Shown piece by piece: positions 29,794 through 38,249 of a DNA stretch of 64,000 bases (position 1 is its first letter; each line of letters opens with the position of its first letter). Both the position numbers and the translations under genes were made by a program. This stretch comes from Robiginitomaculum sp. (GTDB taxonomy: Bacteria > Pseudomonadota > Alphaproteobacteria > Caulobacterales > Maricaulaceae): NCBI GenBank assembly GCA_016765135.1, contig JAESQN010000016.1, positions 62,001 to 126,000 of the forward strand, given 5' to 3'. The notes beneath the pieces were generated by a model. It saw nothing but the letters and a program-made list of their open reading frames with translations, was not told where the DNA came from and did no database searches.

Positions 29794-29991
29794 AGAACGC
29801 TCATGTAAAGAGCGCAAAACTAATCAGATTTTCTCATTGGTCAATTGAAATATGAATCCTGTGTGCAAAATGCTTATTCAGTTTTCATTAACTTCAAATA
29901 TTTGCATTTTTTTGACCCTGATATTTGGTACATATTTCACATTGTCTTGATACAACCAACACATCAATCAACCGGGACAATTGAGGTTTTC

Positions 29992-30612
29992 ATGCGGTTA
30001 CAGCAATCATTGGTCGGATTTAATTATGAGGATCACGGCAATTGTCTGCCTGAACAAGACGTGTTCACGGCGGCCGACAGGCAAGGATTGCTGGACGAGA
30101 TCAAGGCGCTTAAAGCCCAAATCTCCAATCTTGAACATGCGGCCGATACCGACCCGCTTGTACCTGTCAAAAACCGCCGGGCATTTATTCGCGAGATTGA
30201 GCGAGCGCAAACCGTAGCATCACGTTATGATATACAGTCGTGCATAATATTTTTTGATCTCAACAAATTTAAAGAAATAAACGATTTTTATGGCCACGGT
30301 ATTGGCGATGAATTGCTGATCAAAATAGGCAAATGTCTGCGGGCTTCGGTTCGAGATAGTGATATTGTCGCAAGGCTCGGGGGCGATGAATTTGGTGTCA
30401 TATTATTCAAAACTGACGAAATGATCGCCCAAACCAAGGCGGTTATCCTTGCCCGCCAAATTACCAAACAACGGGTTATATTGCCCACCGGAGAGATATT
30501 CCTGACGGCGGCATGGGGAACCTCGCCTTGCTTTCCGGACAATTCGGTCAAGCAAATTTTAGACCGTGCTGACCGGGCTATGTATCAAAACAAATATCGC
30601 AACACCCAATAG
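29992..30612 (+). CDS. Diguanylate cyclase (GGDEF), soluble
   Basis: 206 aa from the ATG at 29992, which has GAGG 6 nt upstream; the open frame extends to 29845 without a better start. A short N-terminal region with a coiled-coil-like helix (RQGLLDEIKALKAQISNLEHA, shortened here) leads into the GGDEF domain (about 65-200). The active site is intact (GGDEF) and an RxxD inhibitory site (RDSD) lies five residues before it, so it should make c-di-GMP with product inhibition. No sensor domain or membrane segment. The next gene is a close paralogue. Confidence 0.9.
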   Translation: MRLQQSLVGFNYEDHGNCLPEQDVFTAADRQGLLDEIKALKAQISNLEHAADTDPLVPVKNRRAFIREIERAQTVASRYDIQSCIIFFDLNKFKEINDFYGHGIGDELLIKIGKCLRASVRDSDIVARLGGDEFGVILFKTDEMIAQTKAVILARQITKQRVILPTGEIFLTAAWGTSPCFPDNSVKQILDRADRAMYQNKYRNTQ

Positions 30613-30703
30613 AACCCACATAAACATTAGGGCATGTTTATCTGGATGTTGGCAGTTTTTTAACACCCTTTTGTTAAACCACTAAAAACGCGTTCGAGGA
30701 ATT

Positions 30704-31321
30704 ATGACCAGCTTGCAAATCAAACCACTTGATGACAGTGAACGCAATACAAGTAGTATTGTCAAATTGGTGGAAAGCGCAGTTGATAAATCGCAAAACT
30801 ACCGAGATGAAATCAGCGTTTTGAAAACTAGGATTTTAGAGCTGGAACAAACCGCTGATACTGACCCGTTAGTGCCTGTATATAATCGCCGCGCCCTTAT
30901 GCGCGAAATAGGGCGGGCACAGACATTGATGTCCCGTTATGATATTTTGTGCAGCATTATATTCTTTGACCTGAACGGATTTAAAAAAATAAATGATCAA
31001 TATGGCCATAGTGCCGGTGATGATTTGTTGATTAAAGTGGGTGCGATACTCAGCGCGTCCGTTCGTGATTGTGATATGGTGGCCCGCATTGGCGGGGATG
31101 AATTTGGCGTTCTGCTGTTTAAATCCGAAGAAATGGTTGCCCGTGCCAAGGCTGCATCATTGGCGTGCCGTATTGCCAGTCAATATGTAGGTGTGTTGGG
31201 CGAGAAAATTTCTATCAGCGCGGCTTGGGGGGTCAGTGCTTGTCACCCCGAAGACACGGCCAGACAAATCCTGCACCGTGCCGACCGCGCCATGTATGAC
31301 AGCAAGCCGGACAGAGAGTAG
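30704..31321 (+). CDS. Diguanylate cyclase (GGDEF), tandem paralogue
   Basis: 205 aa, alignable with the preceding gene over nearly its full length: both have A-D-T-D-P-L-V-P-V, then N-R-R-A, S-R-Y-D-I, FFDLN, and RD(S/C)D followed by VAR and GGDEF. The active site GGDEF and the RxxD site (RDCD) are intact. The N-terminal 60 residues differ more and again look helical. GAGGAATT precedes the ATG. A gap of 91 bp separates the two, so they may have separate promoters. Confidence 0.9.
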   Translation: MTSLQIKPLDDSERNTSSIVKLVESAVDKSQNYRDEISVLKTRILELEQTADTDPLVPVYNRRALMREIGRAQTLMSRYDILCSIIFFDLNGFKKINDQYGHSAGDDLLIKVGAILSASVRDCDMVARIGGDEFGVLLFKSEEMVARAKAASLACRIASQYVGVLGEKISISAAWGVSACHPEDTARQILHRADRAMYDSKPDRE

Positions 31322-31349: not shown

Positions 31350-31381
31350 TTGACTTTAGACCACGGTCTATAGCTTATAAT
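31350..31381 (+). promoter_or_regulatory. MerR-type promoter with 20-bp spacer
   Basis: TTGACT (31350-31355) and TATAAT (31376-31381) are separated by 20 bp, too long for ordinary sigma-70 promoters but the hallmark of promoters remodelled by MerR-family activators. The spacer contains a dyad TAGACC-AC-GGTCTA, extended imperfectly by CTT/TAG, where a MerR-type dimer would sit. The operon that follows encodes mer-like transport proteins. The cognate regulator is not in this window. Confidence 0.75.
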
Positions 31382-31420
31382 GTGTTATTAAGGTCTGTTT
31401 TTTCAATATAGAAATGCAAT

Positions 31421-32284
31421 ATGGCAAAGAGAAATTTTCAGAACTTTATAAGTGGCGCGGGGTTAATATTCGCTGTCGTTATGGGCAATGAAGCGTTCGC
31501 GGCCCCCATAACTTTTAACAGCGCTTTGCCCGTGAGCGACGAAGAAATAATTGTTCGCCAACAAATAATTTATACTGGCGCCAGCGATGATATACTTGGT
31601 GTATCTCGGGATGTGGATATCTGGAGATCCGTCACGGCAATGGGCTACGGCATCACTGAAAAGCTGGCCGTGTTTACCATTGTTCCCATTATTAGTCGGG
31701 ATGTGACAATTGACAATGTGTCCACCAGCGCTTCCGGTTTAGCGGACATACAAACATTTGCCCGCTACCAGATGTACCAAAAGGATGGCCCAGGCCGGAC
31801 AACCCGCATTGCAAGCTTTGCCGGTATCAATATCCCGACCGGCCAAACCGGGGAAACCAGCGACGGCAGCACGGATTTCTTCGGTGGACTTATACTCACC
31901 CGCGCTTCGACCAATTGGAATTTTGACGGTCAAATTCAATATACCGTCAATGGACAAAAGAACGGTTTTGCGCGAGGCAATGAAGCCGTAATTGATGCCT
32001 CACTGCAATACCGCATCAATAACCATAACGGAAATGTGAACACAAATGGATATTTGTTCACTGTTTTGGAAGCCAGCCTAGTCTATACTGACGCTAACGA
32101 AATTACGAATATTGCTGATGCGAACAGTGGCGGCACCACCGCTTTTATAACGCCGGGTTTGCAATACGCAACCAAACGCTGGATAGCTGAAACGGCCATT
32201 AAAATTCCAGTTGTCAAGAATTTAAACGGTACAGCCTTACAACCCGGTGTCACAGTTATTGCCAGCATGCGGTTCAACTTTTAA
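31421..32284 (+). CDS. Outer-membrane beta-barrel-like protein (phenol-degradation MetA/transporter family)
   Basis: 287 aa. Signal peptide (1-28, ending AFAAP). The rest has alternating hydrophobic residues and ends in F (ASMRFNF), typical of outer-membrane barrels; the layout resembles the 'MetA-pathway of phenol degradation' / transporter family. It is the first gene behind the MerR-type promoter and 28 bp before a MerP-like gene, so it may provide an outer-membrane path for a metal or its complex. Substrate is not known. The ribosome-binding site is weak. Confidence 0.7.
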   Translation: MAKRNFQNFISGAGLIFAVVMGNEAFAAPITFNSALPVSDEEIIVRQQIIYTGASDDILGVSRDVDIWRSVTAMGYGITEKLAVFTIVPIISRDVTIDNVSTSASGLADIQTFARYQMYQKDGPGRTTRIASFAGINIPTGQTGETSDGSTDFFGGLILTRASTNWNFDGQIQYTVNGQKNGFARGNEAVIDASLQYRINNHNGNVNTNGYLFTVLEASLVYTDANEITNIADANSGGTTAFITPGLQYATKRWIAETAIKIPVVKNLNGTALQPGVTVIASMRFNF

Positions 32285-32312
32285 AAGCATGAGACTTCAA
32301 AAGGAGACAACC

Positions 32313-32654
32313 ATGAGAAAAATATTATTGATAAGTGCAGGCATACTGCTGCTCGCAGGCAACGCATTTGCAAAAGACGGACAAGGTCAGGTGCAATATG
32401 ATTTGCGGGTTGACGGTATGACATGCCCGTTCTGCGCGGCGACGTCTGAAAAAGCCCTGAAAAAAGTCGAAGGTGTGACCAAAGTGTCGACCAATCTCGG
32501 CGCTGCAACCATTAGCGTATGTGTGGACGAAACCACTGACATGGCCGACGAAAAGCTGGGAAAACTGTTTAAGAAAAAAGGCTTCACCTATGTCAGCAAG
32601 ACCAAGCAAGAGACATGCTCGATAAGTGACAAAAAGAAAAAACAGATCATTTGA
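32313..32654 (+). CDS. Periplasmic heavy-metal-binding protein (MerP-like)
   Basis: 113 aa from the ATG at 32313 (AAGGAGA upstream). Signal peptide 1-20, then a heavy-metal-associated domain with GMTCPFC (about 40), the two Cys that bind soft metals in MerP and metallochaperones. The charged C-terminus (SDKKKKQII) and an extra Cys (ETCSIS) differ from classical MerP. It precedes a MerT-like permease with no gap, so it probably hands metal to it. Confidence 0.85.
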   Translation: MRKILLISAGILLLAGNAFAKDGQGQVQYDLRVDGMTCPFCAATSEKALKKVEGVTKVSTNLGAATISVCVDETTDMADEKLGKLFKKKGFTYVSKTKQETCSISDKKKKQII

Positions 32655-33080
32655 GTGAGCATTTTACGCAAACAGACGCCGGGAAATGTTGGCGGAGAAA
32701 AGCAGTGGGGCTGGCTAACGCTGTTTGCATCTTCAACCACTTTGATTTGCTGTGCCTTGCCCATTTTGCTCGTAACTGTCGGTCTTGGGGCCGTATCGGC
32801 GGCCATGTTCGCCAATGTGCCGTTTTTGGGAACCCTGGCTGAAAACAAGTTTTGGTTATTTATTGGTTCTGGCCTGATATTATCCGTCAGCGCCTGGTCG
32901 GTCTATAGGCCCGGTCGCACGTGCCCTACGGATCCAAAATTGGCTGCCCAATGTACCACGGCGGATAAATGGAATAAACGTGTGTTGATATTCTCAGCCA
33001 GCATGTGGGCCATAGGCTTTATTGCCGCTTATTTGTCTGTACCCATGCTCAACCTCTATGATAAAATTTTTCCTGGTTAA
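32655..33080 (+). CDS. MerT-like metal transport protein
   Basis: 141 aa inner-membrane protein with three to four hydrophobic segments. The first has adjacent Cys (TLICCALPILL), as in the MerT pair that accepts metal from MerP, and the loop after the second has two more (RTCPTDPKLAAQC), matching MerT's cytoplasmic pair. It starts at GTG directly after the merP-like stop. No mercuric reductase (merA) lies nearby, so the ion may not be mercury, or detoxification may be encoded elsewhere. Confidence 0.82.
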   Translation: MSILRKQTPGNVGGEKQWGWLTLFASSTTLICCALPILLVTVGLGAVSAAMFANVPFLGTLAENKFWLFIGSGLILSVSAWSVYRPGRTCPTDPKLAAQCTTADKWNKRVLIFSASMWAIGFIAAYLSVPMLNLYDKIFPG

Positions 33081-33135
33081 GCATTACATTTGCCGACACA
33101 TGTGCTAACATCTCTAAAAGAACGGGAAGATAACT

Positions 33136-33738
33136 ATGCGGATATTTTTGATTTTTGGCTTGTTTTTTGCGGTGTTCCTTGGTGCATGCAGTCAGCAAGA
33201 TTCTGTGCCAGAAGCAACAGGCCCCTGGCATTTATTGCCTGGCCAGTCACATGTGGGTTTTATCAGCGTCAAAAAAGGCACAATGATTGAAGCCCATAGC
33301 TTTGGCACATTAAGCGGCGCGGTCAGTGTGGACGGCGTTACATCTGTTACCGTTGCTTTGGACAGTGTAGAGACCAATATTGACATTCGCAATGAACGTA
33401 TGCGCACTTATTTGTTCGAAACGAAGAAATACCCCTTGGCTAAAATCAGTACCAAAATTGATATGGCGCAATTTGCTGCCATGAAAATTGGTGAGCGTGT
33501 AACTATGAGCCAAAATGTCACTGTCAATATGCACGGCGAAACGGCGGGTTTTGATGTTGCTCTCATTGTTACGCGGCTTGGCGTTAATAAAATCTCTGTG
33601 GATAATCAGGAGCCTGTGGTGCTGGATATTGAAGATTTTTCCATGCAGACCGGGGTAGAAAAACTGCGTGAACTAGCTAGCTTACCGTCGATCACGCCCG
33701 AAGTCCCGGTCAGTTTTTCTCTGGTATTTGAACGCTAA
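33136..33738 (+). CDS. YceI-family lipoprotein
   Basis: 200 aa. Lipoprotein signal with lipobox LGACSQ (Cys near 17). The YceI domain (about 30-200) starts WHLLPGQSHVGFISVKKGT and ends with the usual F-S-L-V-F; it forms a lipocalin-like barrel that binds long isoprenoids or amphiphiles in the periplasm. It is separated by 55 bp from the mer-like genes and may belong to their operon. Its 3' end overlaps the convergent btuD gene by 29 nt. Confidence 0.88.
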   Translation: MRIFLIFGLFFAVFLGACSQQDSVPEATGPWHLLPGQSHVGFISVKKGTMIEAHSFGTLSGAVSVDGVTSVTVALDSVETNIDIRNERMRTYLFETKKYPLAKISTKIDMAQFAAMKIGERVTMSQNVTVNMHGETAGFDVALIVTRLGVNKISVDNQEPVVLDIEDFSMQTGVEKLRELASLPSITPEVPVSFSLVFER

Positions 33739-34465
33739 AACCGTTTTTGGTTTGAATACGAAACACATCCGCGAGCAGGGATGCGCTTAGGGCTTTTTGT
33801 GGTGCGGCATCGGCAACCAGCTTGCCCTTTTGCATCACCCAAACCCGGTCGCAAAACTGTCTGGCAAGGTTTAGATCGTGTAAGCTTGCAATCACGGTTT
33901 TACCGCTTTTCGCTTCATTGGCCAAAGATTGCAAAATAGAAATTTGGTAATAGGGATCGAGGGATGCGGTGGGTTCGTCCGCCAATAAAAGCGGCGCCCC
34001 CACGGCTAAAGCCCGCGCCAATAAGACCCGCGCCTGCTCACCGCCGCTCAGTGTGTCAAAGCGCCTGTCTTGTAAATCTACGCAATAGGCAGATGACATG
34101 GCACCATCAATGGCCTGTGTGTCCGCATGTGAAAACCTCCCCAAACGCCCTCGGTAAGGCGCACGCCCCAAAGCCACCAGTTCGCGCACGGATAAAGCCC
34201 ATGCAGCACTACGGTCTTGGGCCAGCCAGGCAATGCTTTTGGCTTGGGTTTTTGGCGGTAAAGACGGTACGGCCTTATTCGAAAGCATAACATGCCCACT
34301 GGTTGGTGTGATCAATCCGGCAATAGCTTTAAGTAGGCATGATTTCCCCGACCCGTTCGGGCCAAGCAAACCGATCAATTCTCCAGGCTTTGCTGCGCCG
34401 TTGATGTTTTGCAAGACAGGCATGTCGCCATATCCGGCGCATAGGTTTTTAATTTGCAAGCTCAT
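33710..34465 (-). CDS. btuD: Vitamin B12 ABC importer ATPase
   Basis: 251 aa. Walker A GPNGSGKSCLLKA (about 36), signature LSGGEQARVLLARA (about 135), Walker B LLADEPTASLDP and the His loop ASLHDLNLARQ. The ATG at 34465 overlaps the permease stop (ATGA); an upstream in-frame start at 34492 is less likely. FecE/BtuD/HmuV ATPases look alike, but the riboswitch at the head of the cluster points to cobalamin. Confidence 0.9.
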   Translation of the reverse strand: MSLQIKNLCAGYGDMPVLQNINGAAKPGELIGLLGPNGSGKSCLLKAIAGLITPTSGHVMLSNKAVPSLPPKTQAKSIAWLAQDRSAAWALSVRELVALGRAPYRGRLGRFSHADTQAIDGAMSSAYCVDLQDRRFDTLSGGEQARVLLARALAVGAPLLLADEPTASLDPYYQISILQSLANEAKSGKTVIASLHDLNLARQFCDRVWVMQKGKLVADAAPQKALSASLLADVFRIQTKNGFSVQIPEKN

Positions 34466-35424
34466 GACCGTCCCGCCCGAAACGCTAACCATATGAAAAA
34501 CGGTGCGCCGATGAGCGCCGATAAAATACCCAGATACATCACCGTGCCGTTAACTGACAACACGCGTGTCAAGCTGTCTGCAAGCGCTAAAAACCCGGCC
34601 CCACCCAAGGCCGACAAGGGAATAAGCCGCGCCGGGTCAGGGCCGAATATGGCCCGTAATATATGGGGGATAAACAGGCCGATAAACCCGATAGCTCCCG
34701 CCACGGCTACACCTGCGCCGACACACAAAGCTACGCCCAGCACCAGAAACACCCGCAACCGACCCAAGGGCACCCCAAGGCTCTTGGCCGTGTCTTCTCC
34801 AAGACTAAGCGCCCGTAAATCCGGGCCAATCCAAAACAACAACAGCAAGCCTGTCAATGTCAAGCTGCCGCTTATAACCGCCCCATCGTAGCTGGCGTTT
34901 TTCAGGCTCCCCATGAGCCAGTAGACGATTTCTGACAGCGCCCACGGGTTGGGCGCGAAATTCATCAATAGCCCGGTTAAGGCCGTAGCCAATGAGCCAA
35001 TCCCGACCCCGGCCAAGATTAAAACGGTCGCGCTTTGCCTGCGCCCGGCCATAGCCAAGAGTAGCGCCGCCCCGATCCCGGCTCCCGCCAAAGCGGCGGG
35101 TGTTATCCATAGCCTGTGGCCAAAATATAATGCCAGCACCGCGCCCAGCGCCGCCGTAGCCGAAAACCCCAAAATGCCGGGGTCGGCCAATGGGTTGCGG
35201 GTATAGCCTTGCAAGGCGGCCCCGCTCGCGCCCAACCCGGCCCCGATCACAAGCGCCAAGAGGGTGCGCGGGGCGCGCAAATCCTGCATGATGGTGATGT
35301 GAATATCATCGCCGCGTCCAAATAAAGCCGGGGTAAGATCGGCCAAGGGAATGGGCAATGCTCCAATGCTAAGAGAGAGTATGGCGGCAAAGACACCAAA
35401 TAATATCAGCAAGCCGAGCCGCAT
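34462..35424 (-). CDS. btuC: Vitamin B12 ABC importer permease (FecCD family)
   Basis: 320 aa with about ten transmembrane helices. Family motifs include LRAPRTLLALVIGAGLGASG, N-P-L-A-D-P-G-I-L-G and FIGLFIPHILR, the last being the coupling region that contacts the ATPase. It should act as a dimer with two BtuD subunits and take cobalamin from BtuF. Its start overlaps the btuF stop by 1 nt (TAATG). Confidence 0.92.
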   Translation of the reverse strand: MRLGLLILFGVFAAILSLSIGALPIPLADLTPALFGRGDDIHITIMQDLRAPRTLLALVIGAGLGASGAALQGYTRNPLADPGILGFSATAALGAVLALYFGHRLWITPAALAGAGIGAALLLAMAGRRQSATVLILAGVGIGSLATALTGLLMNFAPNPWALSEIVYWLMGSLKNASYDGAVISGSLTLTGLLLLFWIGPDLRALSLGEDTAKSLGVPLGRLRVFLVLGVALCVGAGVAVAGAIGFIGLFIPHILRAIFGPDPARLIPLSALGGAGFLALADSLTRVLSVNGTVMYLGILSALIGAPFFIWLAFRAGRS

Positions 35425-36200
35425 TATTCAAGCCCCTTAATGGCTTTGGCGATAATGTCCGAAGCCTCATACAGGCCCGGCCCGGCGCAGGGCCATAATT
35501 TGCCCGGCACATTGATGTGCGGGGTGGCTTTTATTTTGTCTTGTAAGAGCTTGTTGTTCAGCCCGGTGCTATTGACGGAGGCATAACCGTCTTTGAAAAA
35601 CGATGTGACAATCAAATCCGGTTCGAGCCTGATCAATGTTTCAACATCCGGTGTATGCCATCCAGATGTAGTGACAATGTTTTTGCCGCCCGCCCGCCAG
35701 ATTGCCGCATTTACATATGTCCCCGGCCCCGCCGTACCGCCGGACGCGGAGAGATAAAGAATTTTGGGTCTGCTTACATTGATATCAATGAGAATAAACG
35801 GGTTGAAATGTTTTTTCCCCAATGCCTTTGAAAGCTTGGCCCGGTTGCGATTGAGCGCGGGGAAACTCTCTCCCCAGTCCAGTGTGATATGCCTGACACC
35901 TGCTTTATCCAGCAAGGGTTTCGCCGCCGCGCCCTCGCCGGGGCCAAACAACACCAGTGTCGGGCCTAACGCCAACAAACGCTCACCATCGTCCCAGGCT
36001 TTGGGTTTGGTTTTGAGGTTTTTGGGAGCGGTCGACAAAGTATCGCCCGCTTGCCAAGACAAGGCCGCGATATCCTTATGGGCGACCATAGACAACACAT
36101 AAGCATCGCCGCACAGGGACGTGGAGACAATGCGCGGACGATCCGGGTCGTCCGCGCCCGCCAACAAAAGTCCGCTAAAAATTAGCGTTAATACCCGCAT
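35424..36200 (-). CDS. btuF: Periplasmic cobalamin-binding protein
   Basis: 258 aa from the ATG at 36200, which gives a signal peptide MRVLTLIFSGLLLAGAD; the longer frame to 36287 overlaps btuB further and lacks one. The class III binding-protein fold is seen in PRIVSTSLCGDAYVLSMV (N-lobe), LEPDLIVTSFF and the helical linker. It overlaps the btuB 3' end by 26 nt. Binding of B12 is inferred from the cluster; siderophore- or haem-binding relatives look similar. Confidence 0.85.
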   Translation of the reverse strand: MRVLTLIFSGLLLAGADDPDRPRIVSTSLCGDAYVLSMVAHKDIAALSWQAGDTLSTAPKNLKTKPKAWDDGERLLALGPTLVLFGPGEGAAAKPLLDKAGVRHITLDWGESFPALNRNRAKLSKALGKKHFNPFILIDINVSRPKILYLSASGGTAGPGTYVNAAIWRAGGKNIVTTSGWHTPDVETLIRLEPDLIVTSFFKDGYASVNSTGLNNKLLQDKIKATPHINVPGKLWPCAGPGLYEASDIIAKAIKGLE

Positions 36201-38133
36201 AGACCCCCCGTCCTTGTGATGCAAAACCAACGACTTCCTCGTAGTCCTCGTCGAGCAAGTTTTCTGCCCGCACGGACAATGTGACAATATCGCTGACGCT
36301 ATAGCGTATATTCAAACCCACCAAAGTGAAAGCCTCTAACTCGACACGAGAGAATGTGGCAAAGTCCGTATCTATCTGGCTACCATTATGGTCGGCTGAC
36401 AAGGTCACGCTAAGTGGTTCAACGGGTGTCCATGTGGCCGTGGCGCTTGCCAAAAACTTTGGGCGGCGCAATTCTCTTATGCCGTTTTCTTCGGCGTCCA
36501 AGAATGTCGCCGAAGCCCGTATGTCGAGATTATCGCCAATGGAACCGCGCCCTTCCAACTCCACACCTTCGCGGGTGCTTTGGGTTGTGCGGTTAAACAC
36601 GGTCGCGGGGAAAACGCCAAAGTCCGTGAAAATTTCGTTCTCTAAATCAGAACGGAAATAATCAACACTGAAATTCCATCCCCCAAACTCTTGATCATAA
36701 CCAATATTATATCCGGTCGAGGTTTCGGGCCGAATGTCGGGGTTGCCGACGAAAAACGCCGGAAAGAAACCGAACAATTCAGTCATGGACGGGTTTTTAA
36801 CGCCTGTGCCGACAGAAGCCCGCACTCGCCCGCCAATGCTCTCGAAAGCATAACCTGCCCCGACCCGCCAAGTCTGGCTATCATCAAACCGGTCATTAAA
36901 ATCCGCCCGTGCCGATACTGATAATGTAATTGCATTTTTGTTATAGCGGTAATCCGCCGCCAACGCATGGTTTTGGGTGCTTTCGTTTTGGTTTTGGCCC
37001 GCGCCGTCCCCGCCGAAATTGGAAAATTCTTCCCGCTCGGTTTCTGCCAGTATCGTCAATGAATGCACATCCCAGGATTTTTCCGCCGCCCAGTTAAGCT
37101 GGGTGCGCTTGCCCGTAGTGTCATTGCGAAAGCTGGTTCCCGTAGTATTTTGCCTTGTATCGGTCAGGCCAAGATTGATCAAATTATCAAACCCGGCCAG
37201 CTCAAACCGTGCGGAAACACGTCCGGTTTTACTATCGGTGGTCAGCTCGGAATTTGTATCATTGAGCCGCCCGTCAAAGTCCGTGTCGCTATCAAATTCG
37301 GACACCGCATGACTAGCGGAATATTTGGCGGACAGGGTCACTCGGCCCACGTCGACATTATTCAAGCCAACATTAAGCGCACGACTATTGGCTCCATCAT
37401 CCTCACCGCCATCTTCCCCGTCAAGTCCGGACACATCATATCCGTCCGTGCGAAACACATTGCCATTGATAGACAGCGCGGCCCCTTTGATGGGAACTAC
37501 AGCCGAGACCTGACCCTCAAGCGTATTAAAACTACCCGCTTCAACCGAAACGCGGTAGCTTTCGCTTGTCTCTCCAGCGCGGGTGATAATATTGACAACG
37601 CCGCCAATGGCATCGCTACCCCAAAGTGCCGATTGCTCACCGCGCAAAACCTCTATACGCACCACATCTTCACTGCGCAAAGAACCAAAATCAAATTCTC
37701 CCGTATTCGGGTTGGAAACTTCCACCCCGTCCACCAAGACAAGCACATGATTACCTTCTGACCCTCGCAAGCGTAATTGGGTCAATGCGCCCGCAGGGCC
37801 GGAACGGTTGATTGATGCGCCGGGGATTGTACGCAAGAGATCGGCTACATTAGCATTGCCTCGCGCTTGTATTTCAGATGCCTTAAGCGTAGAAACAGGA
37901 CTTGTAAGGTCTTGCTTTTTGAGATGTTCCAGGCGAGATGCGGTGACAATTATTTCAGACCAGGATTCCCCCTTTTTATTGCAAATGCCTTGGGGAGAAA
38001 ACTCACCATTTGAATTATGTAAAATGATTTCTTGGCAAGGTTCCGGTCTTTCAAAAACCTGCCCATAAGCAGGGCTAGCAAACAGTGCCGCCAATAAAGT
38101 GGCTTGGGCGACAGATAGGTATAAGCGTTTCAT
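36175..38133 (-). CDS. btuB: TonB-dependent vitamin B12 receptor
   Basis: 652 aa from the ATG at 38133 (GGAG upstream), with a signal peptide ending YGQ. After about 35 extra residues with two Cys comes the TonB box EIIVTASR, then the plug (about 60-180: ADLLRTIPGASIN, RGSEGNHVLVLVDGVEV, RGEQSALWGSDAIGGVVNI) and a 22-strand barrel ending in a C-terminal Phe (YAGINANF). The DGVEVSNP and S-A-L-W-G-S-D-A-I-G pattern is BtuB-like. A cobalamin riboswitch in its leader fixes the substrate and should turn it off when B12 is plentiful. Confidence 0.93.
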   Translation of the reverse strand: MKRLYLSVAQATLLAALFASPAYGQVFERPEPCQEIILHNSNGEFSPQGICNKKGESWSEIIVTASRLEHLKKQDLTSPVSTLKASEIQARGNANVADLLRTIPGASINRSGPAGALTQLRLRGSEGNHVLVLVDGVEVSNPNTGEFDFGSLRSEDVVRIEVLRGEQSALWGSDAIGGVVNIITRAGETSESYRVSVEAGSFNTLEGQVSAVVPIKGAALSINGNVFRTDGYDVSGLDGEDGGEDDGANSRALNVGLNNVDVGRVTLSAKYSASHAVSEFDSDTDFDGRLNDTNSELTTDSKTGRVSARFELAGFDNLINLGLTDTRQNTTGTSFRNDTTGKRTQLNWAAEKSWDVHSLTILAETEREEFSNFGGDGAGQNQNESTQNHALAADYRYNKNAITLSVSARADFNDRFDDSQTWRVGAGYAFESIGGRVRASVGTGVKNPSMTELFGFFPAFFVGNPDIRPETSTGYNIGYDQEFGGWNFSVDYFRSDLENEIFTDFGVFPATVFNRTTQSTREGVELEGRGSIGDNLDIRASATFLDAEENGIRELRRPKFLASATATWTPVEPLSVTLSADHNGSQIDTDFATFSRVELEAFTLVGLNIRYSVSDIVTLSVRAENLLDEDYEEVVGFASQGRGVYAGINANF

Positions 38134-38249
38134 AACGACTCCAAAAATTGCGCTCGCTACATGCAAGTGCGTTTCAAATGTCGTCATGGGGCCCTCGGCG
38201 AGGGTATATTCCTGCTCTCCACTATTCCCGGTGGGTCGGCGCTGGCGAC

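Follow-up and report, generated by a model that had tools for sequence, protein, structure and literature searches.

What does an operon resembling mercury transport carry, and what controls it, when neither a regulator gene nor a mercuric reductase gene stands beside it? This question is raised by four genes behind a MerR-type promoter in the window, a 64-kb stretch of the genome of Robiginitomaculum sp. (2.87 Mb, 99.6% complete), whose features are collected in Table 1. We consider it fairly probable that an unlinked, metal-sensing MerR protein has this operon as its second target and that the operon forms a metal relay through the envelope, with detoxification as its likeliest function.

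Table 1. Promoter, genes and candidate regulator of the operon (window positions; the merR gene lies on another contig)
Feature	Position	Strand	Remarks
MerR-type promoter/operator	31350-31381	+	TTGACT, 20-bp spacer, TATAAT; spacer dyad CTTTAGACC-AC-GGTCTATAG
Outer-membrane barrel gene	31421-32284	+	Predicted 12-stranded, FapF/COG4313-like; PF13557 family in most homologues
Exported single-domain HMA protein	32313-32654	+	PF00403; GMTCPFC, MerP/CopZ-like
MerT-like inner-membrane protein	32655-33080	+	GTG start; C32C33 in TM1, C90/C100 in TM2-TM3 region
YceI-domain exported protein	33136-33738	+	PF04264, E = 8.9e-12
Candidate merR	G000:C52:58920-59333		Metal-sensor Cys pattern C80, C115, C125

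The initial annotation had read the products as a barrel-like exported protein, a periplasmic GMTCxxC protein, a MerT-like permease with two Cys pairs and a YceI lipoprotein, and the first three descriptions are confirmed. The AlphaFold2 model of the barrel protein (mean pLDDT 85.7) contains about 12 strands and ends with a C-terminal NF. Foldseek matches it to FapF (5o65, 5o67 and 5o68; E down to 4e-10, TM about 0.65-0.7) and to the COG4313 channel 4rl8 (E = 3e-7). This predicted likeness concerns the fold only: sequence identity is 11-14%, and the barrel gene is linked to metal genes whereas FapF is linked to functional-amyloid genes. The window barrel alone has no Pfam match, and 27 of the 39 aligned family members match PF13557. 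The HMA protein scores above the PF00403 cut-off (36.7 against 24.8 bits, E = 5.6e-9) and has an apparent signal peptide; its Cys38 and Cys41 are invariant across 38 sequences, and its PDB profile matches are copper HMAs and MerP. For the MerT-like protein the PF02411 score is under the gathering cut-off (19.2 against 32.9 bits, E = 1.3e-3), with PF02411 matches in 30 of the 46 family members (E up to 0.01). Its model shows three long helices, and the 20 invariant columns among the 46 sequences include C32, C33, C90 and C100, so that both Cys pairs typical of MerT (a CC pair in TM1 and a pair in the TM2-TM3 loop) are present throughout. Concerning the fourth product, the YceI domain is there, but the term lipoprotein is uncertain because the sister protein has LGIYS in place of the LGAC lipobox.

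The surroundings of the operon contain two further gene groups. Directly upstream lie two tandem GGDEF (diguanylate cyclase) genes (29932-31321, forward strand), an arrangement conserved in the sister genome. Convergent with yceI, an ABC ATPase, a BtuC-like permease, a binding protein and a TonB receptor are encoded on the reverse strand (33710-38187); by eye this set resembles a cobalamin uptake cluster.

To compare relatives, 80 related loci were gathered via the MerT-like protein, and the tally of gene order was restricted to the 54 loci with at least 2.2 kb of flank on either side of the merT-like gene. The four-gene order turned out to be conserved for three of its members. In 44 of these 54 loci barrel and HMA genes adjoin the MerT-like gene in the same orientation (barrel match strong, at least 150 bits, in 29 of the 54 and weaker in others), and the trio is found across two classes, the alpha- and gammaproteobacteria. 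The order is barrel-HMA-MerT here and in other alphaproteobacteria; some gammaproteobacteria show MerT-HMA-barrel or two barrels. Pairwise distances among the three proteins correlate (r = 0.72-0.73) and the correlation between MerT and MerR is lower (0.45), with some contribution from shared species history. Among the related loci YceI accompanies the trio only in this genome and its sister, which rules it out as a conserved part of the module; judging from these neighbourhoods it is a lineage-specific addition, probably co-transcribed with the trio. Thioredoxin-like (37 of 80 loci) and CcdA-like (21 of 80) genes, so named for their similarity to seeds that were picked out by eye, occur mostly in gammaproteobacteria, and their products could keep periplasmic thiols reduced. 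Plasmid records gave two Vibrio matches, one within a copper island. On the Vibrio plasmid NZ_CP119336.1 an annotated heavy metal-associated domain gene overlaps the MerT-like match (L163:9159-9689), a possible MerT-HMA fusion that adjoins a GDCCVxC (seleno)protein gene in the copper island.

MerR-type control, as proposed initially, is supported. The promoter (TTGACTTTAGACCACGGTCTATAGCTTATAAT) has a perfect TATAAT as its -10 box and a central dyad of 8-9 bp with one mismatch, which is the arrangement (19-20 bp spacer with central dyad) that marks MerR-type promoters. It is the sole occurrence of TTGAC-N20/21-TATAAT in the window, where shuffles expect 0.05, and the dyad TAGACC-NN-GGTCTA, with one mismatch allowed, is likewise present in a single copy (0.06 expected). 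The sister genome retains the site ahead of the corresponding genes. With TCCGTAC-type mer operators as the comparison standard (PMC1526738), the window operator matches neither TCCGTAC-N4-GTACGGA nor the 9-4-9 Firmicute form. Scored by a single rule, MerR-type promoters precede 52 of the 80 trio operons, where shuffling of the upstream sequences gives about 13. The operators are of several kinds: CTGGAGT-N2-ACTCCAG in gammaproteobacterial trios, CTGTAGT-N2-CTACAGG in several alphaproteobacterial ones, the CueR-type CCTTCC...GGAAGG at L038, L042 and L043, and the window kind within the genus Robiginitomaculum. One counter-example is G010, where the trio is present and no recognisable MerR-type promoter was found upstream. 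The pattern as a whole suggests that control of the trio by MerR-family proteins is conserved while operator and regulator vary.

Which regulator would act here? No merR gene lies within the window, and the three MerR_1 genes of the genome are all on other contigs, in agreement with the earlier view that the regulator is unlinked. One of the three, on contig C52, is of the metal type. The other two, on C21 (beside an IHF-like gene) and C26, were rejected as regulators since the metal-sensor Cys pattern is absent by eye. A similar operator lies before the C52 gene, whose own promoter (TTGACTCTGGACTATAGTCCATAGCTTAAAAA) is identical to the operon promoter at 24 of 32 bases. An initial operator search of the genome with 3 mismatches returned 15 mostly chance sites from which the C52 site could not be distinguished. 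The operator consensus TTGACYYTRGACYAYRGTCYATAG has two sites in the genome, before the trio and before the C52 merR. With up to 2 mismatches it has 6 sites in 41 genomes, all preceding merR orthologues or the trio, although the consensus was derived after three of the six had been seen; the independent sites are those in G002, in G012 and upstream of the merR in the sister genome (G007). A reversed-pattern control gave 0 sites in the same 41 genomes. The sister genome has both operator sites and both operons. In the congener G012 the trio operon itself begins with the orthologous merR (54% identical): the merR stop overlaps the barrel start, and the operator upstream is of the same kind. This fused operon is the strongest evidence that the C52 MerR may control the window operon.

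The candidate regulator passes no NCBIfam equivalog cut-off. Its best score is with a ZntR model (131 against 143), and with the CueR model TIGR02044 it reaches 113 of 147 bits. A CueR above TIGR02044 together with an ACCTTCC-type operator, the mark of a CueR regulon, is lacking here and is found in G018. Elsewhere there is a trio-linked MerR clade (LNLCRGSEDGCPIIE; L051:7947-8348 and similar) without the divalent-sensor Cys, of which a tested member passed no NCBIfam cut-off. In the sister genome, moreover, purE is separated from the first GGDEF gene by a divergent merR and a second merT-like gene (L028:2379-3192), with a CTGTAGT-N2-CTACAGG operator; this pair is missing from the window at 29818-29930.

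From this we derive the following model. A cytosolic rise of a soft metal, with Cu(I)/Ag(I) the likeliest and Hg(II) possible, would cause the unlinked MerR to untwist the 20-bp-spacer promoters of its first target (its own gene with that of a copper-type P1B-1 ATPase) and its second target, the window operon, so that both are switched on. The secreted HMA protein would then bind the metal via Cys38/Cys41, the MerT-like protein would move it across the inner membrane via the TM1 and loop Cys pairs, and the FapF-type barrel would serve as the outer-membrane passage. The likeliest role would be periplasmic metal handling and clearance from the cell rather than nutrient uptake. Detoxification is preferred because there is no reductase and an efflux ATPase belongs to the same regulon; the import reading suggested initially finds no support here. 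Nutrient import appears unlikely because MerR-type activators answer to metal excess and the regulon is common with that ATPase; in a cell lacking MerA, import of the MerTP kind would do harm. Counting against the model are the divalent-type Cys80 of the regulator, the trios adjacent to mer genes, the operator identity of 24/32 and the trio of G010 without a MerR-type promoter. MerT proteins are, moreover, known as importers.

The metal of the operon appears to be a soft one, with copper or silver favoured first, mercury second and zinc, cadmium or lead third. Only 25 bp behind the C52 merR, and in line with it, begins a P-type ATPase gene whose product is of the copper P1B-1 type (score 592, where the TIGR01511 copper model requires 397). 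The same contig encodes a multicopper oxidase of the copA type and carries a gene resembling copB. At L043 one CueR-type operator kind stands both before the trio and before the merR-P1B ATPase genes, with a CueR-like regulator. The trio of G018 adjoins the gene of a CueR that exceeds the TIGR02044 cut-off, and no P-type ATPase was found in the 12 kb around it. On the other side, Cys80 of the C52 regulator is the divalent-metal sensor Cys, where CueR has Ser77 (selectivity rule and residue roles: PMC9909328).

It might be argued that the MerT-like and HMA proteins carry Hg(II) inward, from mercury or organomercury admitted through the outer membrane by the barrel. We consider this unlikely. 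The MerT architecture with its invariant Cys pairs would suit such uptake, Cys80 occupies the alignment position of the third Cys in divalent sensors, e.g. MerR Cys82 (roles: PMC9909328), and many gammaproteobacterial trios have canonical mer genes next to them or arranged back-to-back (about a dozen adjoin such genes). At L062:503/553, L065:5719/5770 and L086:3911/3930, all gammaproteobacterial, the trio promoter is back-to-back with a canonical mer promoter, either TCCGTAC-type or degenerate, and the two promoters have separate operators. Matches resembling merA occur in 17 related loci under a loose similarity cut that counts partial matches; the redox-active MerA motif is present in nine loci, seven of which also have the C-terminal Cys pair. 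In the host genome the best MerA match stays below the cut-off (343 against 454 bits), and the C-terminal Cys pair is absent in all six matches inspected. A hidden MerA was thereby rejected, and the initial reading of an operon without reductase extends to the genome as a whole. Taking up mercury with no reductase present would make the cell more sensitive, and the other target of the regulator is a copper-type ATPase. The operator, too, differs from the TCCGTAC type of MerR (PMC1526738).

Quite unlikely, in our judgement, is a zinc, cadmium or lead module under a ZntR-like regulator. The ZntR models do give the regulator its best scores, the operator resembles that of ZntR (ACTCTGGAGTCGACTCCAGAGT within a 20-bp spacer; PMC1526738), and a CDF gene adjoins merR. 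However, that CDF gene is placed ahead of the merR promoter and not behind it, the gene in line with merR encodes a copper-type ATPase, and among the regulators of related trios many resemble CueR or lack the divalent-sensor Cys. It is very improbable that the four genes are a chance assembly without joint function: the trio is patchy within the genus, its conservation does not extend to YceI and some merT homologues have no barrel or HMA neighbours, but against this stand the association in 44/54 loci of two classes, the repeated MerR-type promoters and the correlated divergence.

The preferred reading of a MerR-controlled relay for copper or silver can be compared with known systems. With MerT-MerP (PF02411, TIGR02052) the operon shares a three-helix inner-membrane protein with TM1 CC and loop Cys pairs, a secreted HMA protein and a MerR-type promoter upstream. 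Nonetheless, the sequence similarity is weak, with a PF02411 score under the cut-off and 35.8 of 92.6 bits for the MerP model; merA is missing, and the operon has another operator and an outer-membrane barrel. The label mer-like is justified for the MerT/MerP architecture only, given that no mercuric reductase was found in the genome and that in several gammaproteobacteria the trio does not replace canonical merTP but occurs together with it. That an outer-membrane component is foreign to the classical mer operon was rightly noted: the genes tabulated in a 2012 survey of mer operons include none (PMC3466566). Like CueR/HmrR regulons, the system appears to combine a MerR-family activator with a copper P1B-1 ATPase, and some trio homologues have a true CueR with CueR-type operators; here, by contrast, the spacer is 20 bp, the operator ZntR-like and the regulator Cys of the divalent type. 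The CueR literature searched contained no operon combining MerT, HMA and barrel genes. CusCFBA, the copper/silver efflux system, is likewise a metal-induced operon with a periplasmic metal chaperone and an outer-membrane passage, whereas the window operon has neither an RND pump nor a membrane-fusion protein and encodes another kind of outer-membrane protein. A description of the trio was not found in the open-access literature, which misses most subscription journals.

Summarizing, the operon is probably a real, undescribed relative of mercury transport in a marine bacterium, serving copper or another soft metal. We read it as a MerTP variant, a MerR-controlled envelope module of three proteins with its own putative outer-membrane channel. 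More tentatively, the trio may represent a widespread, undescribed soft-metal conduit that needs neither an ATPase nor an RND pump to span the whole Gram-negative envelope and has stayed intact through repeated swaps of regulator and operator (CueR-like, ZntR-like, CTGTAG-type and CTGGAG-type).

MerT and MerP form the uptake arm of mercury reduction. Here their architecture is joined to a predicted outer-membrane channel, goes with copper-type regulators in several genomes and is reductase-free in many proteobacteria. The locus also offers a testable case of an unlinked MerR that would control two loci in one genome and is fused into the operon in another. If the trio carries copper or silver, it would constitute an extra envelope route beside Cue, Cus, Cop and Pco, and mercury-transport annotations based on similarity would be misnamed.
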